DNA of 64,000 nt from Pseudodesulfovibrio sp. JC047 (GTDB lineage Bacteria > Desulfobacterota > Desulfovibrionia > Desulfovibrionales > Desulfovibrionaceae), in the NCBI RefSeq assembly GCF_010468615.1, contig NZ_WUEH01000003.1:124001-188000 (forward strand). The letters are read 5' to 3'. Position numbers and translations under genes: made by a program. How positions within the stretch are numbered: position 1 is the stretch's first letter; the number at the start of each line of letters is the position of its first letter. Below the pieces are notes generated by a model that worked only from the letters and a program-made list of their open reading frames with translations, had not been told where the DNA came from and ran no database searches. This document shows, in pieces, positions 4,256 through 64,000 of this stretch.

Positions 4256-4876
4256 ATGTCTCATCACTCCCAGGCCGCACCGACCAGACATAAAGGTCCC
4301 GGTCCCACCAGTTTCTGGATACAATCCGCCGACGCCGTCTTCAATCACCTGCCCCTGCACACCGGCATGACCTTCATGGACGCCGGATGCGGTGCCGGGG
4401 AATATACCCTCCATGCCGCCCGAATGCTCGGTCCTACGGGACACGTCATTGCCCTGGACACCGTGGAGTCATCGGTCGCATGGTTGAACACCACCCAACA
4501 TGAACCGGGCATGGCGCCGATACAGGGTCACATCTGCGACATCACCACGCCGTTGCCATTCGACGCACAGAGTGTGGACATCGTCCTGCTCGGAACCGTC
4601 CTCCACATCAAGGCTGTCCGAAACCGAGCCACCGCCATGTTTGCCGAATTCAACCGCGTTCTCCGGCCAAACGGCACACTGGCTGTCCTTGAATGCAAAA
4701 AGGAAGAAGCAGACTTCGGCCCCCCGCTCCATTCCCGACTGTCCATACAAGACGTGCAGGCCATGGCCGCTCCAGTCGGCTTTCACACGGCCTCGACACA
4801 TCGTTTCACCCACACCTATCTGCTCTGTCTATCGCCGGATGACAGCACAAAATGCTCGACTCCACACGGCAATTGA
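4256..4876 (+). CDS. Class I SAM methyltransferase (Methyltransf_11 type)
   Basis: A 206-residue Rossmann methyltransferase of the UbiE/arsenite-methyltransferase shape. Motif I is MTFMDAGCGAGEYTLHAA (about residues 35-52), followed by the acidic HVIALDTV turn, motif DITTPLPF, then VDIVLLGTVLH and RVLRPNGTLAVLE. Substrate unknown. Upstream TTG starts are open, but AAGGA five bases before the ATG at 4256 marks the better start. Located just downstream of marR in the same direction. Confidence 0.75.
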   Translation: MSHHSQAAPTRHKGPGPTSFWIQSADAVFNHLPLHTGMTFMDAGCGAGEYTLHAARMLGPTGHVIALDTVESSVAWLNTTQHEPGMAPIQGHICDITTPLPFDAQSVDIVLLGTVLHIKAVRNRATAMFAEFNRVLRPNGTLAVLECKKEEADFGPPLHSRLSIQDVQAMAAPVGFHTASTHRFTHTYLLCLSPDDSTKCSTPHGN

Positions 4877-4931
4877 CATGTGACAAGTTATCGGGCAGTG
4901 CTTATTTTTTTACCGCAAACAAGGAGCGTTG

Positions 4932-5165
4932 ATGTCCGTTCGGTTCCAGGATCTTGCAATTGAAGTTGCTGAAAATCAGGGCCATTGACAGGAGCAAACC
5001 ATTTCCTCTTCGCCGTCCTTTCAGGACTGCATCAAGGCCCTTTCGGCCTGCCTTCTCGTGGTTTTCCCAACCCCGCTCTCATTCAGTGCCCACTTTTTCC
5101 GCAACACCCTCACCACTCTGTCTCTGTTTGAAGCCCTTGGCACCGCCAACGGCCCATATCAATGA
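4932..5165 (+). other. 77-codon frame interrupted by one UGA
   Basis: AAGGAG six bases upstream introduces an ATG at 4932. The frame reads 18 codons, meets TGA at 4986-4988, and then stays open for 58 more codons to a second TGA (5163-5165), with C- and G-rich third positions like real genes nearby. It may be a short leader peptide, a decayed gene with one nonsense change, or less likely a UGA-recoded selenoprotein. No canonical SECIS was seen; only a weak hairpin AGGCC/GGCCT occurs about 50 bases downstream. The protein is not recognised. Confidence 0.3.
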
Positions 5166-5172
5166 CCACATG

Positions 5173-5191
5173 ACCGATTCCGTGAATCGGT
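5173..5191 (+). other. Perfect hairpin before rsgA
   Basis: ACCGATTC (5173-5180) and GAATCGGT (5184-5191) form an 8-bp stem with a three-base loop, 21 bases before the rsgA ATG. There is no T-run, so it is more likely an operator or a stem affecting translation than a terminator. Confidence 0.4.
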
Positions 5192-5212
5192 CTCAACGCA
5201 TGGTGAAAAACA

Positions 5213-6319
5213 ATGACCAAACCTGAAAAACCAATGAACCAATTGTCACACAACGACCCAAAAAACCGACTGGGATGGACTGACACTCTCGAACATCGAG
5301 TGACCGCACTCCCTATCTCGCCGCACACAATAGCCCGCGTCATCAGCGTCCAACGCGGACAATTCCTTGTCTCGGACGGTGTCCGGGAATGGCTATGCAC
5401 GCCTGCGGGCCGCCTGAAGCGCGCCGCCAACCGGGACTATCCCGTGACCGGAGACTGGGTTACCATCGAAGCAACCATCGTCACCGGAGTCATTCCCCGA
5501 ACCAACTTCCTGTCTCGCGGTGCTGCCGGATCACGAGGCCATCGGACCGATACCGCACTCCGGGAGCAGGCCATTGCCGCCAACATCGACACAGTCTTCA
5601 TCGTGTGCGGGCTTGATCGGGACTTCAACACCCGTCGGCTCGAACGGTATCTGACCTTGGTCCACAATCAGGGCATTCCACCCGTGGTGGTCCTGACCAA
5701 AGCGGACCTGCATGACGATCCGACCCCATTCCTTGAAGAAGCCGAGGCCATTGCCTTTGGTGTGCCCGTGGTCATGACATCCATACAGGACGGCCGGGGA
5801 AAGACCGAATTGGAACACTGGCTCGAAGCAGGAAAGACCGTGGCCATGATCGGCTCGTCCGGTGCCGGAAAATCCACCCTTGCCAATTTGTTGCACGGAA
5901 CGGATATTCAGGCCACCGGAGCGATCAGTGACAGTGTCGGCAAAGGCCGTCACACCACCACGGTCCGAGAGCTGCTTCGGATGCCACAGGGCGGGATGCT
6001 CATGGACAATCCGGGCATCCGTGAAATCGCCTTTCACGAAGAAGGCGACGGCCTGACCAGCACCTTTGCCGATATCCAGGCTCTGGCCGAATCCTGCCGC
6101 TTTGCCGATTGCTCGCATGAGCATGAACCCGGATGCGCGGTGCTTCACGCCGTCCAGACCGGGGAACTCAGTCAGGATCGGCTGGACAGTTATCACAAGA
6201 TGGCCAAAGAAATGGAGTATATTGCCTCGCGACGCACCAAAAGCGCGGACCGCGTTGAAAAGGAACGATGGAAAAACGTGGCCCTGCACATCAAGAATCT
6301 CAAAAAACGCAACCGATAA
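5213..6319 (+). CDS. rsgA: Ribosome small subunit GTPase RsgA
   Basis: A circularly permuted GTPase that checks late 30S subunit maturation at the decoding site. Order of parts: N-terminal OB fold (about 40-105), G4 TKAD (162-165), G1 P-loop GSSGAGKST (214-222), G2 GKGRHTTT (243-250), G3 DNPG (265-268), and the C-terminal zinc knuckle with Cys295, Cys300, His302 and Cys308. At 368 residues it is of normal length. A second in-frame ATG lies at 5234; neither has a strong ribosome site. Confidence 0.95.
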   Translation: MTKPEKPMNQLSHNDPKNRLGWTDTLEHRVTALPISPHTIARVISVQRGQFLVSDGVREWLCTPAGRLKRAANRDYPVTGDWVTIEATIVTGVIPRTNFLSRGAAGSRGHRTDTALREQAIAANIDTVFIVCGLDRDFNTRRLERYLTLVHNQGIPPVVVLTKADLHDDPTPFLEEAEAIAFGVPVVMTSIQDGRGKTELEHWLEAGKTVAMIGSSGAGKSTLANLLHGTDIQATGAISDSVGKGRHTTTVRELLRMPQGGMLMDNPGIREIAFHEEGDGLTSTFADIQALAESCRFADCSHEHEPGCAVLHAVQTGELSQDRLDSYHKMAKEMEYIASRRTKSADRVEKERWKNVALHIKNLKKRNR

Positions 6320-6330
6320 TCACCCATAAA

Positions 6331-6367
6331 AACACGCGCCACAGACAGACAACCTGTGGCGCGTGTT
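6331..6367 (-). terminator. Terminator between rsgA and acs
   Basis: A perfect 14-bp stem AACACGCGCCACAG (6331-6344) / CTGTGGCGCGTGTT (6354-6367) with a nine-base loop. The A-run at 6327-6332 gives a U-tract on the minus strand, so it terminates acs and may act in both directions. Confidence 0.75.
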
Positions 6368-6402
6368 CACGAAAATGAATCCCGAAAAAAAGCGATTATG
6401 AA

Positions 6403-8364
6403 TCAGGGATTTTCCTGCTCGCCCCCCTCCGTATTCGGAGCCTGAAAGCTTTCATCTTCCAATCCGGTCAAATCCCCGATGTCATGGCCGGTCTCCTCGG
6501 CCTTGAGCACGCGCCGCATGATCTTGCCTGAGCGGGTCTTGGGCAGGGCCTCACGGAATTCGATGGATTTTATCACGGCCACCGGGCCAAGTTCGTTACG
6601 GATGGTCCGTTTGAGGTCCTTGATGAGATCATCGTCAGGTTCAAACCCGCCATTGAGCTGCACAAACGCCTTGGCAGCCTCGCCCTTGATCTTGTCCGGC
6701 ACCCCGATCACCGCACATTCGGACACGGCCCCGTGCATCCCGAAAGCGGCTTCAAGCTCTGCCGATCCGATACGATGTCCGGCGATGTTGATGACATCGT
6801 CAGCCCGGCCCTGAATCCAGATGTAGCCATCTTCATCCTTCTTTGCGACGTCACCCGCATAGTACACGCCGGGAACTTTCTCCCAACACGCCTTGAAGGC
6901 ATCGTCATCATTCCAATATCCAGTCATCATGGCAGGCCAGGGTTTGGTCACCACCAACAATCCCCCCTTGCCAGGCGGGACCGGCTTCCCGTGCCGGTCA
7001 ACAACATCACACTCCACCCCGGGCAATGGCTTGGTGACAGAGCCGGGCTTGAGCAGGGAAATGGGCAACGGCGCGATCATGAACATGCCGGTTTCCGTCT
7101 GCCACCAGGTGTCCAGCACCGGGCATTCGGACCGCCCGATATTCTTGTACAACCATGTCCAGGCCTCGGGAGCAATGGGCTCACCCACGGTCCCGAGCAA
7201 ACGCAAACTCGAAAGATCATGTTGCTTGGGATACTGGGTGCCGAACCGCATGAGCATCCGAATCATGGTCGGCGCGGAATAAAAAATGGTAACTCCGTAT
7301 TTGGCCACGATGGCCCAGAGTCGATCGGCCTGCGGATAATTGGGATGTCCCTCGTACATGACCGAGGTGGTCCCGGCCATGAGCGGCCCGTAGATACCGG
7401 CACTGTGGCCGGTCACCCACCCGGGATCAGCGGTACACCAGAAAATATCGGTTGGCTTGATGTCAAAAACCGTTGTCAGCGTCCGGTTGACACCCACCAT
7501 GTACCCGGCATGGGAATGGACAATCCCCTTGGGTTTTCCTGTGGTCCCGGAGGTGTACATCAGAAAAAGCGGATCATCCGCGTCCATGACCTCGGTGGGA
7601 GCTTCATTGCGCTCCTGACGGACCAAATCCTCGTACTGAAAATCCCGTCCGTCCACCATGTCCACACTCAGGTTGCACCGCCGGACCACCACCATGGAAT
7701 CGACACAATCCGCGCAGGCACCGATCAAAGCTTCATCCGCAGTTTCCTTGAGACTGACGATCCGTCCGTTGCGATAGAATCCATCCGCCGTGATAACCAG
7801 CTTGGCATGGGCGTCATTGATGCGCTGCCGCAAGGCCTTGGCCGAAAAACCGGCGAAGACCACGGAATGAATCGCCCCGATCTTGGCGATCGCCAACATG
7901 GAAATCACGGTTTCAGGCAAGGGCGGCATGTAGATGACGACTCGGTCACCTTTGCGAATGCCTAATGAGCGCAGGGCATTAGCAAACCGATTCACTTCAC
8001 GGTACAATTCGAAATACGTATATTTGCGCTGGTCGCCGGGTTCGCCTTCCCAGATCAGGGCAAGCTTGTTCTTGTTGGCGGTCTCGATGTGTCGATCCAA
8101 GGCGTTGTACACGATATTGCACCGCGCACCGGGAAACCAGCGATAGAATGGTGCGTCCTTGTCGTCGAGCACCTGATCCCACTTCTTGAACCAATCCAGA
8201 TCATCGGCGGCTTCTTCCCAATATCCCATGAAATCCATCTGAGAGAATCGACGCGCCGCGTCCAATTCCTGGGGATTGACATTGGCCTCGATAACCAATT
8301 GCGGAAGCGGGCGAAACACGCGCTCTTCCTGCAACAAGCTGTCTACTGTTCCTGGCTGGTCCAT
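6403..8364 (-). CDS. acs: Acetyl-CoA synthetase (AMP-forming)
   Basis: Activates acetate to acetyl-CoA with ATP, releasing AMP and pyrophosphate. The 653-residue length is typical. Motifs: adenylation P-loop [20 protein letters not shown], the hinge region [13 protein letters not shown], and the C-terminal [11 protein letters not shown] whose lysine is the catalytic and usually acetylated residue. The ATG at 8364 has AGGAGG five bases upstream. It follows a LytTR regulator gene on the same strand, 103 bases away, and the gap carries LytTR-like direct repeats, so acs is probably a direct target. Confidence 0.95.
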
Positions 8365-53549: not shown

Positions 53550-54998
53550 TTATGAGCGTGATTTGTCCAAACCAAAAAGCGGAACGTCCATGGGATCGGC
53601 ATCCCACGGCGACTTGGTGGGTGCTGGCTCCTGACCGTATCCAAAGATATCGTCCATATTACGGATGATGGAGTTCAGGGCCGGAGCTTTGGCAATGGAC
53701 ATGCGCACGAGGTCATGCATCACGGCTTCGTCAAATTTGGTAAAAGGACAGACGGTTTGGCACCGGCTGCAATCCGGGTCACCGCTCAACATGTAGGAAT
53801 AACATTTCTTGGCATTCATGTACCACCCCTTGTATCCCTTGGCCTGCCACGGGACATCGCCACCCCAGAACGGCTCATCGGCCATGCTGATGGCACCAGA
53901 CGGACACATCTCTCCGCATTTCTTGCAGACCTTGCAGAATTCCACGATACCGGCGTCAATCGGTTTGGTTTCGGCCAGCGGCAAATCGGTCACGGTGAGC
54001 ATCACTGTCCGCAAGTCCGTCCCCCATTGCGGGCTACACAAAATACCGGCCCGACAGCCTTCGCCCATGCCTGCCATGATACCAAAGGGCACACTGCGGC
54101 CAACGGAACTGGTTCCACCTCCAAAATGCTGATATCCCAGACCTCGCAGGAACACCTTGATTCGATTGGAGTAGATATTTGCACGAGAATAGGCGGCCGT
54201 ATTACTACAGGCCCAACTCATGCGGTCCGTGTACTGCTGCATCCACAGGGACTGGGGAATCACCGCACAGATGACCCACAAATCCTTGTTCGGCAAAACA
54301 TATTTGCCATTCGGCTTGGCATACCCCTTTTCAACATCCTCGAATTCAATGATCCCGTAGAGCAATTTCTTGGTTTTCTCATTGAGCTTGACAAACCCCA
54401 TGTCCGCGGCACCGAGAATCCGGCCAGCCACCCGCAGCATCCGGGAATTCTCTTCCGGCGTGCCTTCATATTTTGGCACCCCGAAATCGTCGGGCGTATA
54501 GAACATGGTGGGATGTTCCCACTCGTTCAGGGCTTGTACATCCGGTCCGGTCCAGCCTGGGGCGAGGGAACTAAGCGCGCCCCATCCCCAACAATTAGCA
54601 TCACCCAAGGCCCGATCTCGCAAGGAATAGCCCGGCGCATTTTCACGAACTTTCTTGGTGGTGGATTCAATATTGCTGGCATGGATCTTCATATATTCAT
54701 TTTTGTCGTCCCACGCATCAGGATTGAACAACGTGGCCTGTCCGCCGGGAAATACTTCCATATTGTCCCAATCGATCTGAACGGTCGGCTCATCCACTTC
54801 ACGCACCCAAAATGGCAGATTGCGATCAGCATGGGGGGACGCCATCATATCGTCCAAATCCTTGAATCCAGCAGCAGAAATGCCACCAGTCGCTGCTTGC
54901 AATCCAAGTGCCCCGCCACCAACACCCAACATTTTCATGAATGTTCGACGCCCGACAGTGGAATGATAGTGTTTTTTTCTCGAAATCGACTCACGCAT
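53550..54998 (-). CDS. rdhA: Reductive dehalogenase catalytic subunit RdhA
   Basis: A 482-residue corrinoid iron-sulfur enzyme that removes halogen from an organohalide used as electron acceptor. It has a twin-arginine signal (GRRTFMKMLGVGGGALG, residues 16-33), a corrinoid-binding core with SVGRSVPFGIMAGMGEG, and two [4Fe-4S] sites: Cys355, 358, 361, 365 and Cys399/410, 413, 417. The substrate cannot be told from the sequence. It is the first gene of the operon, behind a sigma-54 promoter, with AAGGTGG four bases before its ATG. Confidence 0.92.
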   Translation of the reverse strand: MRESISRKKHYHSTVGRRTFMKMLGVGGGALGLQAATGGISAAGFKDLDDMMASPHADRNLPFWVREVDEPTVQIDWDNMEVFPGGQATLFNPDAWDDKNEYMKIHASNIESTTKKVRENAPGYSLRDRALGDANCWGWGALSSLAPGWTGPDVQALNEWEHPTMFYTPDDFGVPKYEGTPEENSRMLRVAGRILGAADMGFVKLNEKTKKLLYGIIEFEDVEKGYAKPNGKYVLPNKDLWVICAVIPQSLWMQQYTDRMSWACSNTAAYSRANIYSNRIKVFLRGLGYQHFGGGTSSVGRSVPFGIMAGMGEGCRAGILCSPQWGTDLRTVMLTVTDLPLAETKPIDAGIVEFCKVCKKCGEMCPSGAISMADEPFWGGDVPWQAKGYKGWYMNAKKCYSYMLSGDPDCSRCQTVCPFTKFDEAVMHDLVRMSIAKAPALNSIIRNMDDIFGYGQEPAPTKSPWDADPMDVPLFGLDKSRS

Positions 54999-55054
54999 AC
55001 AACCACCTTGTGTTTAAAGTCATACTTTGGCATCACGCCAACAGCACAACCTAC

Positions 55055-55070
55055 TGCATACTCCATGCCC
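55055..55070 (-). promoter_or_regulatory. Sigma-54 promoter of rdhA
   Basis: On the minus strand the sequence GGGCATGGAGTATGCA fits TGGCAYG-N4-TTGCA with the invariant GG and GC ten bases apart. Transcription would start around 55044, about 45 bases before the rdhA start codon. It matches the AAA+ sigma-54 activator encoded divergently. Confidence 0.7.
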
Positions 55071-55138
55071 CACAATATATGTAGATAATTCAGATATTTA
55101 ACAAAATAGACAGACACAAACAGGTTGTCCCATTTGAC

Positions 55139-55162
55139 AAATTCGTACCATGGTGCAAATTT
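55139..55162. promoter_or_regulatory. Upstream activator palindrome
   Basis: A 24-bp imperfect palindrome centred on ACCATGGT with AAATT/AATTT ends; 20 of 24 positions are symmetric. It lies about 70-90 bases upstream of the -24 element, the distance typical of a sigma-54 enhancer, and 46 bases before the activator's own ATG. Confidence 0.55.
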
Positions 55163-55207
55163 AGTGAACTATTTACACAGTCTATTTTTTCAAACGGTTG
55201 GAAACAA

Positions 55208-56845
55208 ATGAGCGATTACACATTTTTACGGAATCTGATTTTAAGCATCAACAGCAGTCTGGATTTTGCCCAGGCCATGCGAGCCACGTATGCTTTCCTG
55301 TCTCAACATCTTCCAATTGTCGGCATATCCCTGCATCGATTTCTACCCCAGCTCCATTCGACACAACTGGATTTTCTGACAACGAAAAATGAATTCTACG
55401 CATTGGATACGCTTGTCCCCTTATCGGACCAAAGCATGGAACGGCTGCAACAGCATGAGCAGGCCAAAGATATCTCCCATGGATGCAGCTGGAAAGAAGC
55501 ATCCATGGGCAAATGCCTCAATCACGCGCTAGCGGGCTTCATCCCTCCCGGGGATCACTCATTTCTGGTGGCCATTTTAACTGCGGGCGACCACATCGTG
55601 GGTCACCTCTGTCTGGTCGGAAAAGAAAAGAACTGTTTTACCCCCGAACATGAGGCCTTACTGGAATTAATGCGGGCACCTGTGGGGCTGGCCATGATGA
55701 ATCTGCTCCAACACCGGAAGACCCATGAATTGCAAATGCGACTGGATGAACACCGACGGCAACTGGCCGGAGAGGTCAGCCTGCTGAAAGAAACGTCCAT
55801 CATCGGCAAGGATGGAGGCTTACGGCACACCATGCAGATGGTTGAACAACTGACAGGCAGTGACGCGCCCGTGCTTATCATGGGAGAAACCGGCACTGGC
55901 AAGGAATTGATTGCTGACGCGGTCCAACGGGTATCAGCCCAAAGAGACGGCCCATATCTCAAGATGAACTGTGGAGCGATCCCGGAATCCCTCATCGACA
56001 GTGAATTGTTCGGCTATCAGAAGGGCGCGTTTACCGGCGCATTGACCGACAAACCCGGAAAATTCGAACAGGCATCAGGCGGCACCCTTTTTCTCGATGA
56101 AATCGGCGAACTGTCTCCTTCATCACAAGTCCGACTCCTGCGCGTCTTGCAGGACAAGGTCGTGGAACGAGTGGGTGGCATCAGGTCCATCAGGATTGAT
56201 GTCCGCATCATTGCGGCCACCAACCGTCCTCTTGAGAGCATGATGCAGGCCGGAACTTTCCGGGAAGACCTCTATTATCGGCTGAACGTTTTCCCTCTCA
56301 GATTGCCCCCTCTCAGAGACCGTACCGAAGACATTCCCTTATTGATTCACCATTTCATTGAGGAATTCAGCAAAAAGCTCCACATATCAAAGAAGATTGA
56401 AATCGAATCGAATTCAATGAAGCATTTGTATGAATATTCATGGCCAGGCAATATTCGGGAACTCAGAAACCTGGTCGAACGCGCATTGACCGTGCACCCG
56501 TCCGGCAAGGTAAATCTTGCTCAATACCTGCCGCAGGACCCGGGCTGGTACCTCTCAGCCGAAGAAAGTCCGGGCTACCTGAAAAAAATGATCCAGGAAG
56601 AAGTGGCAGCGACCCTTGCGACCATCAAACTGCCCGAAGCGCAATCAGAAGTGCCCCAAGACATGAAAGACGAGCCTCCCCTCTCCCTTGATCGAGCCAT
56701 GGCTGCGCACATCAGCACCGTGCTCCACCATTGTCGAGGCAAGGTCAGCGGACCAGGCGGCGCGGCCGAACTTCTGGAGATCAACCCCAGCACGTTGCGC
56801 AAACGGATGAAAAAACTCAATATCAATTTTGGGCATTCAGGATAG
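55208..56845 (+). CDS. Sigma-54 activator with GAF domain, probable rdh regulator
   Basis: A 545-residue enhancer-binding protein. Parts in order: a GAF-like sensing domain (about 1-190), AAA+ core with Walker A GETGTGKE (226-233), the sigma-54 contact loop GAFTGA (273-278) and Walker B FLDEIG (295-300), and a C-terminal Fis helix-turn-helix (GGAAELLEINPSTLRKRMKKL). It is divergent from rdhA, whose promoter is of sigma-54 type, so it most likely senses the organohalide or its redox consequence and turns on rdhABC. Confidence 0.9.
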   Translation: MSDYTFLRNLILSINSSLDFAQAMRATYAFLSQHLPIVGISLHRFLPQLHSTQLDFLTTKNEFYALDTLVPLSDQSMERLQQHEQAKDISHGCSWKEASMGKCLNHALAGFIPPGDHSFLVAILTAGDHIVGHLCLVGKEKNCFTPEHEALLELMRAPVGLAMMNLLQHRKTHELQMRLDEHRRQLAGEVSLLKETSIIGKDGGLRHTMQMVEQLTGSDAPVLIMGETGTGKELIADAVQRVSAQRDGPYLKMNCGAIPESLIDSELFGYQKGAFTGALTDKPGKFEQASGGTLFLDEIGELSPSSQVRLLRVLQDKVVERVGGIRSIRIDVRIIAATNRPLESMMQAGTFREDLYYRLNVFPLRLPPLRDRTEDIPLLIHHFIEEFSKKLHISKKIEIESNSMKHLYEYSWPGNIRELRNLVERALTVHPSGKVNLAQYLPQDPGWYLSAEESPGYLKKMIQEEVAATLATIKLPEAQSEVPQDMKDEPPLSLDRAMAAHISTVLHHCRGKVSGPGGAAELLEINPSTLRKRMKKLNINFGHSG

Positions 56846-57592: not shown

Positions 57593-57657
57593 CGACCGTA
57601 TGGACTAAATACGAAATCTTGACTCTGTTCGTCAAGGAATTATAGTCCAGATGGTCG
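57593..57657. promoter_or_regulatory. TetR promoter with flanking inverted repeat
   Basis: CGACCGTATGGACTA (57593-57607) and TAGTCCAGATGGTCG (57643-57657) are imperfect inverted copies (13 of 15). Between and into the right arm lie TTGACT (57619-57624) and TATAGT (57641-57646), 16 bases apart, a good sigma-70 promoter for the TetR gene. A minus-strand promoter for the membrane protein gene likely overlaps. The arrangement suits autoregulation by looping or paired dimers. Confidence 0.6.
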
Positions 57658-57674
57658 AAAAAAAAGGAGACGCA

Positions 57675-58220
57675 ATGCCCAAAATAATAGATCACGAACG
57701 CTATCGAAAGGAACTCGCGGCACAAGCCACCAAAATTTTTCAACAACATGGCTATGCAGGGATGGGAATGCGCCAAATTGCCAAAGAACTCGGCATCTCG
57801 AAAAGTGCGCTCTACCACTATTTCCCGAGTAAGGAGGCCCTGTTCACAGCATGTTCAAAGGCGGTCACATCCTTTGAAGCTGACGAATTCGATGCAGCAT
57901 CCATCGCCGCCATGAACCGACCTGAACGAGCCAGGGCCTTGATCGATTTTTTCATGCGACTCGAAAAGGATTTCAAAGGCGAACTCACGGTTCTGCTGGA
58001 CTATCTCAGGCCGCTCTCACCATCCCTGATCGCCAAAGACGAAAACATGCGTCATTCGAACCAACAATACACAACCATGATCACGGCCTTTGTCGGACCT
58101 GACAAGGCCCAATTCGTGCTATGCCTGATGTACGGTCTGCTCCTCCAGCGACTCTTTGACGGGGGGACAAGCGATCTTCAGGACTTCGAGGAAAAATTGA
58201 TCGCTATCATGGACCACTAA
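57675..58220 (+). CDS. TetR family transcriptional regulator
   Basis: A 181-residue repressor. The helix-turn-helix is QATKIFQQHGYAGMGMRQIAKELGISKSALYHYFPSKEALF (about residues 15-55). AAGGAG five bases before the ATG at 57675 fixes the start; the frame is open eight codons further. It faces the membrane protein gene and lies 400 bases upstream of the P-type ATPase cluster, which it could also control. Confidence 0.88.
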   Translation: MPKIIDHERYRKELAAQATKIFQQHGYAGMGMRQIAKELGISKSALYHYFPSKEALFTACSKAVTSFEADEFDAASIAAMNRPERARALIDFFMRLEKDFKGELTVLLDYLRPLSPSLIAKDENMRHSNQQYTTMITAFVGPDKAQFVLCLMYGLLLQRLFDGGTSDLQDFEEKLIAIMDH

Positions 58221-58615
58221 TCACCGCCGCCCCCTTTCCCGCCCCATTGATCACCGCAAAAGCCAGATATCCTTAACGATATCTGCCATCGCTTTCCCTT
58301 TCAAAAAGACAGAAATCATCCGTCTTTTCCATGCATTTTTACCGCAATATTTCCGTTCGAATCAAAAAAACGACATTTTTGCGTGACAATGAATTCGATT
58401 TTCATTATCAACTCTTTGCTTGCATATGCACGATCACCTGTTCAATGACACACAGAACAGCCAGTCGTCGCATAATGGGCAAAATGACCAGCTGGACACA
58501 GGAAAAACCGCACATGACATGCGCGGTCAAAAAAAACAGCAGTCACTCGTGACAATGAAAAAGACTTTCATTCTCGAATACTGTTGTCCATTCAGGACAA
58601 ATTCACACTCCAGAA
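58221..58615 (+). promoter_or_regulatory. Leader of ATPase cluster with two matching dyads
   Basis: No gene. TGACAATGAA-N7-TTCATTATCA (58384-58410) and TGACAATGAA-N7-TTCATTCTCG (58550-58576) share left arm, spacing and most of the right arm. The halves resemble Fur box halves (GATAATGA/TCATTATC) but the centre is six bases too long. Also present: CAGATATC/GATATCTG (58264-58285) and the palindrome TGCATATGCA (58421-58430). Confidence 0.55.
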
Positions 58616-60844
58616 TTGAGCACTATCGTGAAACAGACCATGACCATCCGCCACTCAATTCCCGGACGAATTCGCGTTCGCATTCGGGACCTGTATAAAA
58701 ACGAAAAACTCGCGTTTTCGTTTGACACTCAACTTGGCACACTCAATTTCGTTAAAAATGTCCGGGTCAACCTCCGCTGCGGCAGCTTGGCGGTTCGCTT
58801 CACGCCGACCTCGGGCGATACCGATGCGATACTCGCCAAGATCACCGACATCCTGCATATCGAAAACACACCCGAGGCGCGGGGTATCCACCCGCCCGCC
58901 TGTGCGTCTTCCCTGTGCGAATGCACGGCCTGTGCAACCACTGAAGCAGGATGCAATCCCGTCAAATCAGCCCTGCACCGTTTCATTGCGGTCAGTTCCG
59001 TCATGGGCGTGGTCTTCACCAGAACCACCATCCTTGGTCTGACCGTCGCCGAGACCGCACTCAGCCCATTGGGACTGGTGGCCCTCGGCCTGTCCTTCCC
59101 ACTCTTCAAACAGGCCTATCACCAACTCAAACAGAAACGTTTTACCCTTGAAGCGTTCCTCGGAGCGAGCTGCGTGGCTGCCGTGGCTGCTGGTGAAGCA
59201 CTCACCGCATTCGAGGTTCTGTGGATCAATTCCGGGGCCGATCTGGTCAAGGCATGGATCACCGAACGCTCCCGCAAATCCATCAGCGACATCTTGGAAG
59301 TCTCCTCCCATCACACCTTTGTCCTCATCAATGGCGTCGAAGTGGAAAAAGACGTCGAAGCCTTGCGCGCAGGTGACATCGTGGTGTTGCACACCAGCGA
59401 AAAAGTCTGCGTGGATGGCGAAATCGTGGATGGCGAAGCGCTCATGGACGAGGCCCCCATTTCCGGCCGGTCGGACTTCATCCCCAAAACAGTCGGGGAC
59501 ACGGTACTGGCCGGAACCTTCGTCCGTCAGGGCGTGATCTACGTCAAGGCCCATGAAGTGGGTGATCGCACCTATCTTTCCCGCGTCCTGAAAATGGTCG
59601 AGGATTCACTGGAAAACCGCGCCCCCATCGAAGGGGTGGCCGACAGGTTGGCCGCCAATCTCATCAAGGTCGGTTTCGTCACCACTGCCGGGACATGGTT
59701 GCTGACCGGCAGCCTGTACCGCGCCTTCACCGTCCTGCTCGTCATGGCCTGTCCCTGCGCCACGGTGCTGGCCGCGTCAACCGCTGTTTCCGCAGCTATC
59801 AGCGCAGCGGCCAAACGCAACATCCTCATCAAGGGTGGCCGCTATCTTGAAGAAGTCGGCAAAACCGATACTGTCTGCTTTGACAAGACCGGCACACTGA
59901 CCACCAACGCCCCCATGCTCGCCCGCATCGTCTCAATGAACGGGACCAACGAGGACGTATTGCTGCAAATGGCGGTCTCCGTAGAGATGCACAATCACCA
60001 CCCATTGGCCCAGGCCATCAAAAACGAAGCGGAGGAACGGTCCATCGTTCCAAAAGAGCATACGGTCTGCGAATATGTCCTTGGCATGGGAATGCGAGCC
60101 GAAGTGTCCAACCGTGAAATTCTTGTCGGCAATCGAAAACTGCTTGAAAAACACGAAGTCCCGGATATCAAAAAAGCCGAGACCACAGCGGCTCCCCTCC
60201 GCCAACAGGGACGCACCGTCCTCTTTGTTGTGGATGACAAGAAAATTCTCGGCCTGCTCGCCTTTGACACCATGATTCGACCCGAAAGTGGCGAAGTCGT
60301 AAAACGGCTCCGACGCGGCGGTGCGGACGCCATCGTGTTGATCACTGGCGACGAGCCGAACACGGCCAACGAATTATCCAGACGGCTCGACATCACCGAG
60401 GTCCACGCCTCGGTCATGCCTGAGGAAAAGGCCACGATTGTCGAGACCATGCAAAAACAGGGAGCGGCCGTTCTCATGGTCGGCGACGGAGTCAATGACG
60501 CTCTTGCCATCACCCACGCCGACGTGGGGGTCGCCATGGGCGCGGGCGGCAGTGAAGTCGCCATCGAAGCGGCGGACATCGCCCTGGTCAACGACGATCT
60601 TGGCGGGCTGGTGTATGTCCAGTCCCTGAGTCAGCAAACGCTGAAAGTCGTCCATCAGAACTTCTGGATCGCAACGGGATCAAATCTCATCGGCGTTGTT
60701 TTCGGGGCCATGGGGATGCTCACGCCCATCATGGCCGGCATGATCCACATCACCCACTCGCTTGGCATCTTGGCAAACTCGGCACGACTGCTGCGCTACG
60801 AGCCTCTGCCACTGGAAACCACCGCGCCAATACAGGAGCAATAA
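58616..60844 (+). CDS. Heavy-metal P-type ATPase, FezB-like
   Basis: A 742-residue P1B-type ATPase. Parts: N-terminal HMA-like domain with TIRHSIPGRIRVR (residues 10-22), a Cys-rich patch (Cys96-Cys113, six cysteines), membrane helices, actuator domain, TM motif CPC (379-381), phosphorylation site DKTGT (423-427), HP motif (462-463) and GDGVNDA. In the actuator the usual TGES is SGRS (283-286), so the dephosphorylation Glu is Arg. In ferrosomes such an ATPase loads iron into membrane compartments; copper or other metal export is an alternative. Start uncertain: TTG 58616, GTG 58628 or ATG 58640, none with a good ribosome site. Confidence 0.78.
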   Translation: MSTIVKQTMTIRHSIPGRIRVRIRDLYKNEKLAFSFDTQLGTLNFVKNVRVNLRCGSLAVRFTPTSGDTDAILAKITDILHIENTPEARGIHPPACASSLCECTACATTEAGCNPVKSALHRFIAVSSVMGVVFTRTTILGLTVAETALSPLGLVALGLSFPLFKQAYHQLKQKRFTLEAFLGASCVAAVAAGEALTAFEVLWINSGADLVKAWITERSRKSISDILEVSSHHTFVLINGVEVEKDVEALRAGDIVVLHTSEKVCVDGEIVDGEALMDEAPISGRSDFIPKTVGDTVLAGTFVRQGVIYVKAHEVGDRTYLSRVLKMVEDSLENRAPIEGVADRLAANLIKVGFVTTAGTWLLTGSLYRAFTVLLVMACPCATVLAASTAVSAAISAAAKRNILIKGGRYLEEVGKTDTVCFDKTGTLTTNAPMLARIVSMNGTNEDVLLQMAVSVEMHNHHPLAQAIKNEAEERSIVPKEHTVCEYVLGMGMRAEVSNREILVGNRKLLEKHEVPDIKKAETTAAPLRQQGRTVLFVVDDKKILGLLAFDTMIRPESGEVVKRLRRGGADAIVLITGDEPNTANELSRRLDITEVHASVMPEEKATIVETMQKQGAAVLMVGDGVNDALAITHADVGVAMGAGGSEVAIEAADIALVNDDLGGLVYVQSLSQQTLKVVHQNFWIATGSNLIGVVFGAMGMLTPIMAGMIHITHSLGILANSARLLRYEPLPLETTAPIQEQ

Positions 60845-60848
60845 GACC

Positions 60849-61160
60849 ATGGATTTCAAACTTTTGATGGAGCTTCGACACCATCTCACGATCAAGCATC
60901 ACGTCCCCGGACGTATCCGGATCAAGTTCGCCCTGGCATTATTGGCGGACTCCCGGGCGCAGGCCCTCAAAAAGGACGCGGGCGACTCACCCCCTCCATT
61001 CATTCGCAACACTTCGGTCAATCTCTTCACCCGAATGGTCGTTATCGAATACGATCCGGACGTGATTGTGCCTGAGAAACTACATGAAGCATTGACCACC
61101 GAGGACCCGGCACGATTCACGGAATTGGCAGCGGAATTCGAACAAATCGTCTCCGCATAA
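60849..61160 (+). CDS. Small HMA-like protein, FezC-like
   Basis: A 103-residue protein that reads like the HMA-like N-terminus of the neighbouring ATPases on its own: TIKHHVPGRIRIKFALALL near the start, then RNTSVNLFTRMVVIEYDPDVIVPEKLHEAL, a beta-alpha-beta ferredoxin-like pattern. It has no CxxC metal motif. It starts four bases after the ATPase stop. In ferrosome clusters as I recall them, a comparable HMA-type protein accompanies the ATPase. Confidence 0.65.
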   Translation: MDFKLLMELRHHLTIKHHVPGRIRIKFALALLADSRAQALKKDAGDSPPPFIRNTSVNLFTRMVVIEYDPDVIVPEKLHEALTTEDPARFTELAAEFEQIVSA

Positions 61161-61185
61161 TAGAGAGCAAAAAGGAGTATTTCAC

Positions 61186-61782
61186 ATGGAAAACATACAA
61201 CAGGCACAGCCCGATATGGGACAGACTCAACCAGCAGGGCAATTCGTACAGCCCCAACCAGGTGGATTGTATCAATACGTTGCCGGAGCCGGATTCGTTC
61301 AGGTCCAGGGCATCCAACCGGCACAGCCCACCATGGGCGCACAGATTCCGACCATGCATCCCGGAACAAATGCACAGGCTGACATGGCCACAGCGCAGGC
61401 AGCCGCACAAGCCGCAGCCTCTCAAGCGGCTCGCCAGACCGCCGACGCCACTGCCGGAATAAATGGACAGGGTATTCCCGAGGGCACGGACCCCAAATTC
61501 GACCAGAACAAATTCGGCCAGATGTACACCGTCATGAACGACGTCATGAACGGCGAGCCAGATCCAACCAAGATCATGGCCTTGTTTCAGGAAACGGACG
61601 GCGATTTCTGGAAAGGTGCCATCGTCGGAGCGGCGGTCGGCTTCCTCGCCAGTAACGAAACCGTGCGAGGTGCCGTCACGGGCGTTGTCGGCTCCATGTT
61701 CGGCAATGGCGATCCCGCAGGCCCACAGGTCACTGTGCCACACCCGACAAATAAGACCTCTTCACTGTCCACTGCATCATAA
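61186..61782 (+). CDS. Gln/Ala-rich glycine-zipper protein
   Basis: A 198-residue protein with a long low-complexity half rich in Gln, Ala, Pro and Met (1-95, including an Ala/Gln stretch at about 66-88) and a C-terminal amphipathic glycine zipper DFWKGAIVGAAVGFLASNETVRGAVTGVVGSMFG. The second half resembles a segment in the 131-residue protein two genes on. It may coat or insert in a membrane surface. Ribosome site AAAGGAG is good. No known family name could be assigned. Confidence 0.65.
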   Translation: MENIQQAQPDMGQTQPAGQFVQPQPGGLYQYVAGAGFVQVQGIQPAQPTMGAQIPTMHPGTNAQADMATAQAAAQAAASQAARQTADATAGINGQGIPEGTDPKFDQNKFGQMYTVMNDVMNGEPDPTKIMALFQETDGDFWKGAIVGAAVGFLASNETVRGAVTGVVGSMFGNGDPAGPQVTVPHPTNKTSSLSTAS

Positions 61783-61793
61783 AGGAACATTCA

Positions 61794-62339
61794 ATGACAC
61801 AAAGTAATTCCACCCCGTCCTTTGCCAGAGCCGCATTTGGTGCCGCTCTGGTCGGAGCGATTATCGGCGGCACTTCGGCTGCCGCACACGGCATCAGGCA
61901 AGTCAAAAACGGCACGGCCACGACAGAGGATGTCGCCCGAACCGTGGCCCGAGAAGCAGGCACCACCGCCGTGGCTGCGGGAACCGCTGGTGCAGTCGTC
62001 GGCACCTTCAGCCTCAGCCCGCTCGTTTCCTCCCTCGGCATTGTGGCGGTGGCCACCGGCGTCAAATACGCCATGGATTCCCTGATCGGTTCACCGACTC
62101 CGGCAATCGCTCAGGCCGAGCATAACCACGCTCCCCTGCAAACGGACCAGACCGCATCAAAGACCCCACCCAAGAAAACTCCGTCAAAAAAGACACCGGC
62201 CAAAAAAGCCGCTCCCAAGAAAAAGACGACAAAAAAGGTGACGGCCAAAAAGACCACCACCTCGAAAAAGACTGCATCGAAAAAGGCATCGACACCCACG
62301 ACAACTGGCACCCCCACCAAAACCGCTGAAAAGAAATAG
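61794..62339 (+). CDS. Glycine-rich membrane protein with Lys/Pro tail
   Basis: A 181-residue protein with two glycine/alanine-rich hydrophobic segments (FARAAFGAALVGAIIGGTSAAAHG and GTAGAVVGTFSLSPLVSSLGIVAVATGV) followed by a basic tail of about 60 residues made of TKK, SKK and AKK repeats, like histone H1 or AlgP tails. The hydrophobic part suggests membrane insertion and the tail binding to nucleic acid, polyphosphate or another anionic surface. Start supported by AAAGGAAC nearby. Confidence 0.65.
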   Translation: MTQSNSTPSFARAAFGAALVGAIIGGTSAAAHGIRQVKNGTATTEDVARTVAREAGTTAVAAGTAGAVVGTFSLSPLVSSLGIVAVATGVKYAMDSLIGSPTPAIAQAEHNHAPLQTDQTASKTPPKKTPSKKTPAKKAAPKKKTTKKVTAKKTTTSKKTASKKASTPTTTGTPTKTAEKK

Positions 62340-62362
62340 CGCACCACAACGAGGAAATCTTC

Positions 62363-62758
62363 ATGAGCGACTCCATCAACCATCCACAGCCAGGCGAATC
62401 ATCCACCGAAGGCGCCTATTCCCGGGACCCGCAAAATCCGACGTATTACTTTCAGGACAGCAATCAGTATGGGACGGTCAACGCCGCACCCACTGCCCAG
62501 TACTCGACACAAACCGCCGCGCAAACAGCACCGGTCCCCACGGATTCCTCCATGGCCTCGTGGGTCAACTTCACCAGCACCGACTATCTCAAAGGCCTTG
62601 CCCTTGGCGCAGGTGTGGCACTTGTTGTCACCAACCCCACCGTGCAAAAAACCGTTGTTTCCGGCGCGGTCAAGATGTGGGCGGCCCTTCAGGGAGGCGT
62701 CGAGGAATTGAAGGAACAAGTGCAGGACGCCAAAGCGGAAATCAGTCAACAGGATTAA
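62363..62758 (+). CDS. YtxH-like glycine-zipper membrane protein
   Basis: A 131-residue protein with a disordered Gln/Tyr/Thr-rich start and a membrane segment YLKGLALGAGVALVVTNPTVQKTVVSGAVKMW, then an acidic/basic helix (ALQGGVEELKEQVQDAKAEI). The pattern KG-x3-GA-V-x-N-x-TV matches that of the 198-residue protein upstream, so the two may be paralogous shell or scaffold parts. GAGGA precedes the ATG. Confidence 0.65.
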   Translation: MSDSINHPQPGESSTEGAYSRDPQNPTYYFQDSNQYGTVNAAPTAQYSTQTAAQTAPVPTDSSMASWVNFTSTDYLKGLALGAGVALVVTNPTVQKTVVSGAVKMWAALQGGVEELKEQVQDAKAEISQQD

Positions 62759-62762
62759 GCAG

Positions 62763-62984
62763 ATGGCAGTCACCAAAAGTACCCCCCCGTCCAGTGCATC
62801 GGGGATGTCGTCCAAGACGAAAAAGACGCTGGCAAAGGCCGGTATGGCGACGACTCTCGGAACACTGGTCGCTACTGGGCTAATGGAAACCAACAAGACG
62901 GACACCTTGAAAAAAGTCCACCTCTGGTCCGGTTTCGCCCTGGTCGGCTTCTCATACTGGCATTATTCCCTCTATAAAAAATAA
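62763..62984 (+). CDS. Small membrane protein with His pair
   Basis: A 73-residue protein: a Ser/Lys-rich start, a short hydrophobic stretch (GMATTLGTLVATGLM) and a C-terminal helix KKVHLWSGFALVGFSYWHYSLYKK with two histidines spaced as in some haem- or metal-binding helices. Four bases separate it from the previous stop. Family not recognised; found here only in the context of the ATPase cluster. Confidence 0.6.
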   Translation: MAVTKSTPPSSASGMSSKTKKTLAKAGMATTLGTLVATGLMETNKTDTLKKVHLWSGFALVGFSYWHYSLYKK

Positions 62985-63003
62985 GCGACCTGCGGAGACA
63001 CCC

Positions 63004-64000
63004 ATGACCGCGAAAGCGGAACCACACACACGGGCATTCACCATCGCCCACGAAGTCAGAAAACGGATCAGGCTGCGGAGTCAACGGCTGTTCGACCCCG
63101 CACTTGATCTGAAATACCTTGAAGCGTTGGTGGAATCCCTACCCGGCGTGGAGTCGTCCCGGACCAACAAATGGGGATCGAGTATCGTCATCGAGTATGA
63201 CGGCAACCGGACAAACCGGGACCGCATCCTCAACCTGCTCGAAAATATTCCCGTGGACGCCTATATGCCCGACGGCATGAAAGCCGATCCCATTTCCCTG
63301 CCCACGGTCGTGGCGCAGGGGGCGGCTGCCGCACTCACCCCGTTCATGCCGCCGCAGGCCGCAGCCCCAACGAGTTGGCTCATGGGACTGCCCACCATGC
63401 TCGAAGGCCTTCATTCTCTGCTCTATGACGGAGTGAAAGTCGAAGTGCTCGATGCCTCAGCCGTGGCCTTTTCCCTGCTCAGACGAGACTACTTCACGGC
63501 CAATGCCATCGTGGCCATGCTCGGTTTGGGGTCCGCCATGGAGAACTGGACTGAAAAGAAATCCAACGATCTCCTGAAAAACCTCTTGCGTCCGCAAGTG
63601 GAAATGGTCTGGGTGGAACGGGATGCGCAAGAGAAACAGGTCAACTTCACCGATCTCATGGTCGGGGATCTGGTCATCTGCGGTTCTGGCGAACTCGTGC
63701 CCGTGGACGGCGTGGTCGTGGACGGAGACGCGGCCCTGAACCAAAGCTCCATCACCGGCGAATCCCTTCCAGTCCATGTTTCCACCGGGGATGACGTCCT
63801 TTCCGGAGCCGTGGTCGAAGACGGACGCATCAAGATTTCGGCCAACAACGTGGGGAACGAAACCAGCATGGCCCGCATCGGACGTTTTCTTGAAAACTCC
63901 CTGCGAACGCAATCAACATCACAGAAGAAAAGCGATGAACTGGCCGACAAACTGGTGCCGGTCACCTTTGCGCTTGGCCTTGGCCTGTTTGCCATGACCC
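63004..64000 (+). CDS. Second heavy-metal P-type ATPase (partial, cut by window)
   Basis: An open frame of 332 codons running off the window end. The start shows TIAHEVRKRIRLR (residues 13-25), a variant of the motif in the two upstream proteins, in an HMA-like domain, then helices and an actuator domain with intact TGES (251-254) and the conserved GDLVICGSGELVPVDG. The phosphorylation, CPC-type and nucleotide domains lie beyond 64000. GGAG six bases before the ATG. Two P-type ATPases in one operon suggests that one is catalytic for transport and the other specialised. Confidence 0.75.
   Translation, partial: MTAKAEPHTRAFTIAHEVRKRIRLRSQRLFDPALDLKYLEALVESLPGVESSRTNKWGSSIVIEYDGNRTNRDRILNLLENIPVDAYMPDGMKADPISLPTVVAQGAAAALTPFMPPQAAAPTSWLMGLPTMLEGLHSLLYDGVKVEVLDASAVAFSLLRRDYFTANAIVAMLGLGSAMENWTEKKSNDLLKNLLRPQVEMVWVERDAQEKQVNFTDLMVGDLVICGSGELVPVDGVVVDGDAALNQSSITGESLPVHVSTGDDVLSGAVVEDGRIKISANNVGNETSMARIGRFLENSLRTQSTSQKKSDELADKLVPVTFALGLGLFAMT

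Follow-up and report, generated by a model that had tools for sequence, protein, structure and literature searches.

Six-gene fez operons have been published for Shewanella putrefaciens and Rhodopseudomonas palustris. Solidesulfovibrio magneticus RS-1 is described as a ferrosome maker with fez genes (PMC12748827, PMC12713370), FezA and FezB of Clostridioides difficile are reported to be repressed by Fur (PMC12574912), and FezC is presented as a heme b protein related to DUF4405 (PMC10979944). Here, we describe a locus of Pseudodesulfovibrio sp. JC047 (genome, 3.57 Mb) that lies at the end of a 64,000-nucleotide stretch of contig NZ_WUEH01000003.1 (G000:C3:124001-188000), called the window below. 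We think it likely that its genes form an extended fez operon, controlled by iron, whose products build ferrosomes, i.e., membrane-bound iron stores. This reading is carried by what was directly observed: which genes are present and in what order, their conservation, their place in the trees, the conserved ligands, and the repeats upstream. An earlier note, made from the letters of the window, had already proposed a ferrosome-like cluster of seven tightly spaced genes, two of them encoding P1B ATPases.

Seven open reading frames (ORFs) on the same strand occupy window positions 58628 to 64000, and the gaps of 4 to 25 bp between them in the ORF listing bear out the tight spacing. Their order is ATP1, an HMA_2-type gene, GZ1, a MamC-like gene, GZ2, a FezC-like gene, and ATP2:

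58384..58410, no strand assigned: Fur-box-like inverted repeat, ∼220 bp before ATP1 (exact pattern match)
58550..58576, no strand assigned: second Fur-box-like inverted repeat (same pattern, 2 mismatches)
58628..60844, plus strand: ATP1, P1B-type ATPase with an HMA_2 N terminus, CPC, and HxxH in the last membrane helix (Pfam, motif, clade; GTG start picked by homology)
60849..61160, plus strand: solitary HMA_2-type protein (HMA_2 at 1.4e-05, below the Pfam cut-off; start picked by homology)
61186..61782, plus strand: GZ1, Pro/Gln-rich N terminus and C-terminal glycine-zipper segment (hhalign match to Vibrio and Cereibacter operon proteins)
61794..62339, plus strand: MamC-like membrane protein with a lysine-rich tail (NF038051 match)
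62363..62758, plus strand: GZ2, YtxH-like glycine-zipper protein (hhalign match to four plasmid operon proteins)
62763..62984, plus strand: FezC-like cytochrome half of 73 amino acids (aa), two helices, H53 and H67 (DUF4405 at 0.0029, below the cut-off)
63004..64000, continuing to 65142, plus strand: ATP2, FezB-type P1B ATPase with an SCA motif (motif, clades, RS-1 comparison)

The window edge cuts ATP2, whose full-length product of 712 aa ends at L005 11142, which is 65142 in window numbering. A gene for a 245-aa protein with two FeoA stretches (FeoA2; L005 11146-11883) begins 3 bp after ATP2, and none of the eight closely packed genes, ATP1 through FeoA2, has an interrupted frame. Past FeoA2, the other strand carries genes for an 88-aa FezA-like glycine-zipper protein, a MarR-type protein, and a Fur-family protein. 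Because the same gene order was found again in other fetched loci of the genus and in other families, the cluster is more than a chance arrangement.

RS-1 anchors the fez assignment. There, the strongest match to the ATP2 family is an SCA ATPase of 743 aa (610 bits; next match, 381 bits), the end of which is overlapped by a 146-aa protein combining an HMA part with two helices, and a small glycine-zipper ORF lies in front; we take these three as the FezB, FezC, and FezA candidates, respectively. The FezB candidate matches ATP2 at 40% over 578 aa and ATP1 at 29% over 624 aa. In a 23-row tree, ATP2 and the RS-1 FezB candidate share an SCA-motif clade, from which ATP1 stands apart (support, 100/100). 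The candidate itself groups with ATPases of a 38-41% type from the genus and order (100/98), and this group is sister to ATP2, the plasmid ATPases, and a third ATPase, ATP3, all of which are considered below. With 39% over 57 aa (9e-13 in a single comparison), the FezC-like protein of 73 aa matches the membrane half of the FezC candidate of RS-1, and its H53 and H67 are invariant in 13/13 rows. The profile of the 88-aa FezA-like protein matches the FezA candidate with modest scores (3.1e-05 in a small set; hhalign, 69%). The comparison with FezB and FezC for which the earlier note had called favors its fez identification. An SCA-type P1B ATPase and a FezC-like membrane half are common to both systems, as may be a FezA-like glycine-zipper protein; RS-1 differs in that no match to ATP1, GZ1, the MamC-like protein, GZ2, or FeoA2 was found around its ATPase, and in that its FezC carries an HMA half.

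Both window ATPases have N-terminal HMA_2 matches and the usual P-type domains; in ATP1, HMA_2 scores 4.9e-12 and E1-E2_ATPase 6.8e-36 (Pfam), and in ATP2 the HMA_2 match stays below the Pfam cut-off. Both cysteines of the CPC of ATP1, its C421, and H711/H714 (the HxxH of the last helix; residue numbers count from a TTG ORF of 742 aa) are kept in 21/21 relatives. We know of no P1B class with this combination of CPC, C421, and H711/H714, and an HxxH in the last helix is not known to be a feature of copper and zinc pumps. At the place of the CPC, ATP2 has the membrane motif DYSCA, whose SCA we take to be the mark of the P1B-6 class. A review table lists Fe(II) under P1B-6 (PMC7558416). A tree of 73 rows places SCA-type ATPases and close variants together in one clade (48 rows, 100/99) and the ATP1 group in another (21 rows, 100/100); the two other P1B ATPases of the genome lie outside both, on long branches.

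The CPC of ATP1 might suggest that the operon detoxifies copper, zinc, or cadmium, and both ATP1 (354.2 bits) and ATP2 (375.2) score above the cut-off of 313.5 set for TIGR01512, a cadmium-family model. This model is not discriminating, however, because the RS-1 FezB candidate also passes it (345.2 bits), and so does ATP3 (327.7). Neither window ATPase reaches the cut-off of 397 of the copper model TIGR01511 (ATP1, 337.7; ATP2, 326.8), an FeoA gene adjoins, and the HxxH of ATP1 is retained throughout its relatives. We therefore regard detoxification as improbable; the copper or zinc exporters that the earlier note had named as its competing outcome score low.

Operons with an SCA-type ATPase and small genes ahead of it are also found in plasmid records of Vibrio, Azospirillum, Arcobacter, and Cereibacter (the Cereibacter motif is ACP). 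Profile comparison by hhalign pairs GZ1 with Vibrio and Cereibacter proteins (97%), GZ2 with proteins of all four operons (97-98.5%), the HMA protein with those of Vibrio, Azospirillum, and Arcobacter (97-98.5%; 37% over 100 aa to the Vibrio protein), and the FezC-like protein with an Arcobacter protein (98.8%). The MamC-like protein pairs with a Vibrio protein at 94%, less surely with one of Arcobacter (78%), and weakly with one of Cereibacter (21%); no counterpart was found in the Azospirillum operon by this comparison. The shared set comprises HMA, GZ1-like, MamC-like, and GZ2/YtxH-like proteins with the SCA-type ATPase, and in Vibrio the order HMA, GZ1, MamC-like, GZ2, ATPase is that of the window minus ATP1 and FezC. 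The earlier note could match the accessory proteins to no family and supposed that the composition might be new; the proteins themselves are not, since every one of them is paired with a protein of one or more of the plasmid fez-like operons. The GZ1 and GZ2 profiles match each other, so the two families are related. The plasmid operons differ from the window in that no ATP1 and no double FeoA was found in them, Cereibacter having a single divergent FeoA gene. Judged by sequence, the extra P1B ATPase with CPC and HxxH and the double-FeoA protein are the distinctive features of the locus.

The operon of Vibrio sp. THAF190c (L061 5289-9052) lies on a 1.7-Mb plasmid record in a stretch without annotated features, and similar operons are carried by the Azospirillum, Arcobacter, and conjugative-typed Cereibacter plasmids. 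A DUF2325 gene (L059 4509-4841) is located near the Arcobacter operon.

An SCA-type pump, FeoA, and Fur-like repeats would suit any kind of iron handling, including iron efflux across the ordinary cytoplasmic membrane by an operon whose pumps would expel excess Fe(II) without any organelle and whose small membrane proteins would be pump subunits or regulators. However, the vesicle-type accessory set accompanies the SCA ATPase across phyla, and the ferrosome maker RS-1 has related FezA, FezB, and FezC candidates. We thus consider efflux of this kind unlikely and prefer a ferrosome-building fez operon.

The genus was surveyed in 36 genomes, among them that of JC047. Seven have a window-type ATP2 (73% or more), and six others have an SCA ATPase at 38-41%; there is no overlap, and from counts of 7 and 6 among 36 we do not claim that the two cluster types exclude each other. 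Clusters of the 38-41% type (L035, L041, and similar genus loci) contain other small proteins, one of them combining a glycine zipper with a lysine-rich tail; next to these, L035 has a cation-efflux (CDF) gene. GZ2 was found in 12/395 genomes of a phylum sample, again counting this one, and named loci include those of Desulfonema magnum, Desulfatirhabdium, Dethiosulfatarculus, Desulfosarcina, and a KSB3 bacterium. ATP1 and the double FeoA both recur in distant relatives.

Among 27 annotated window-type loci, which were selected by ATP2 or GZ2 and some of which had served to train the models, GZ1, the MamC-like gene, GZ2, and FezC are each present in 26, ATP2 in 25, FeoA2 in 23, ATP1 in 22, and HMA in 18. 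This count excludes L033 (4.3 kb; FezC, ATP2, and FeoA2), L029 (a second G029 contig), and the copies L045-L048. At the 11 loci that GZ2 alone had identified and that lay outside the training set, the MamC-like gene and GZ1 both occur in 11, FezC in 10, ATP2 in 9, and ATP1, FeoA2, and HMA in 8 each. Contig ends explain the gaps among the upstream genes of L028, L051, L056, and L093-L095. FeoA2 is really absent from L050 and L095, and HMA from L052, L053, L055, and L057; ATP1 is placed downstream in L051 and L053. L092 has a second CPC-type ATPase (4640-6970) between HMA and GZ1, and no SCA-type ATPase was found in that stretch.

In G003, G013, G020, G029, and G033, FeoA2 is followed by ATP3, which has an ACA motif, and by a set of convergent genes. 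ATP3 was not found in this genome, where only the FezA-like gene of the convergent set is present, and the locus could accordingly be a reduced cluster that may no longer form ferrosomes. Conversely, the genes from ATP1 to FeoA2 are intact in frame and spacing and have the upstream repeats, and 8/9 clusters of the phylum sample whose contig is complete past ATP2, as well as most named ones, likewise show no ATP3; the distribution does not tell a loss here from a later gain in the relatives. Reduction of this sort seems very improbable to us. In the draft genome of Salidesulfovibrio brasiliensis (L032/L048), ATP2 and ATP3 are each split over two overlapping frames.

The pattern of the upstream repeats, TGAYAWTGA-N7-TTTCAWTRTCA, was derived from these very sequences. 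The window holds two sites (four strand matches) versus 0.08 expected, and 0/100 shuffles had as many; the genome has the pattern at 10 distinct places, two here and eight elsewhere, and none with the reversed control. Of the eight, one is followed by DUF3450/ExbB genes, another directly by a DUF2325 gene (L135 2214-2495), and a third is near a feoB-like ORF recognized by eye; five are without a plain iron link. All 7/7 genus clusters have a repeat within 500 bp, six of them at ≤1 mismatch, a conservation that is not independent because the pattern was read off the same sequences. Outside the genus, the best matches have 4 to 8 mismatches, and among 21 other loci tested, RS-1 (4 mismatches) alone beats all of its 100 shuffles. 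The repeats upstream of ATP1 are putative binding sites for Fur.

In the fez operon that we propose, scarcity of iron would release Fur from the upstream boxes, and the operon would be expressed. GZ1, GZ2, the MamC-like protein, and the FezA-like protein would give inner-membrane vesicles their shape and coat, ATP2, as a FezB-type pump, would load Fe(II) into them, and the FezC-like cytochrome half, probably as a dimer, would govern the redox state of the iron. On the cytosolic side, the HMA_2 and double-FeoA proteins may bind iron and pass it on, or they may tune the pump. ATP1 would be a second, different P1B pump in the same membrane, serving a second metal, iron release, or charge balance. 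Organelle formation, the metal, the direction of transport, and each individual role are what we infer here.

Several observations weigh against this reading. The FezA, FezB, and FezC labels in RS-1 rest on similarity and position, not on locus tags, and the FezC-like protein of the window is without the HMA half of an RS-1-type FezC. The SCA motif is variable in some relatives (SCV, SCS, GCA, and ACA), all four ATPases tested pass the cadmium-family model, and a 2016 paper states that no P1B-6 pump had yet been tested biochemically (PMC4932525). ATP2 is really absent from L092 and L094, i.e., from 2/27 loci with the accessory genes, and the Fur-like repeat appears convincing only inside the genus. 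Finally, two ferritin-family matches in the genome mean that ferrosomes would come in addition to ferritin.

The earlier note had placed the cluster at 58221-64000. A cluster is indeed present there. Its first gene starts at 58628; position 58221 merely follows the end of a TetR gene (57651-58220), and the operon runs past the window to the FeoA2 gene, which lay outside the note's view. The TetR gene precedes the cluster and has no counterpart in the other loci compared, and for that reason we do not favor it as the cluster regulator. A reductive-dehalogenase-type gene and a divergent sigma-54 activator gene lie at 53550-56845 of the window.

One accessory protein connects the locus to a second iron organelle. 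The window MamC-like protein matches NF038051, the model for MamC (Mms13), at 4.1e-10 and 39.8 bits over positions 5-91 of 97, and all 18/18 members of its family, including those from Vibrio and Arcobacter, match the same model (best, 3.2e-20). In 60 relatives, NF038051 (at 0.001) hits 11 places in 8 genomes, all in fez-type clusters, and it has no match in 14 control genomes; the relation to MamC thus appears to be specific to fez clusters. The equivalog cut-off of 100 bits is reached neither by the window protein nor by any of the 11 places, which makes the protein a relative of MamC, not MamC itself. The window protein also differs from MamC in its lysine-rich tail and its fez, not magnetosome, surroundings. 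A low-complexity artefact is not favored, because the glycine-zipper proteins GZ1 and GZ2 are unmatched by the model at E 1 and all 11 matches fall in fez-type clusters. The MamC-like family gave no significant match to solved structures; low-confidence predictions (mean pLDDT, 60 and 61) have three and two helices, the three-helix model being that of the MamC-like protein. The loop of MamC is described as binding iron and influencing magnetite size (PMC6584501). The passages covered by a literature search for MamC together with ferrosomes make no connection between the two, although one may still have been published.

We tentatively suggest, as a possibility short of even odds, that MamC is a specialized offshoot of a family normally at home in the ferrosome, so that ferrosomes and magnetosomes would share an inherited mineral-shaping membrane protein, and that here the second P1B pump (CPC and HxxH) and the double FeoA beside FezB would let the organelle handle a second metal or move iron both ways.

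As iron organelles of bacteria, ferrosomes have been described only recently, and most of their accessory proteins have no known role. The conserved, enlarged layout seen in Desulfobacterota and at a few loci outside offers definite candidates for the roles of second pump, cytosolic iron factor, and vesicle proteins. With a fez-cluster protein tied to MamC, shared parts and ancestry of two iron organelles become testable.

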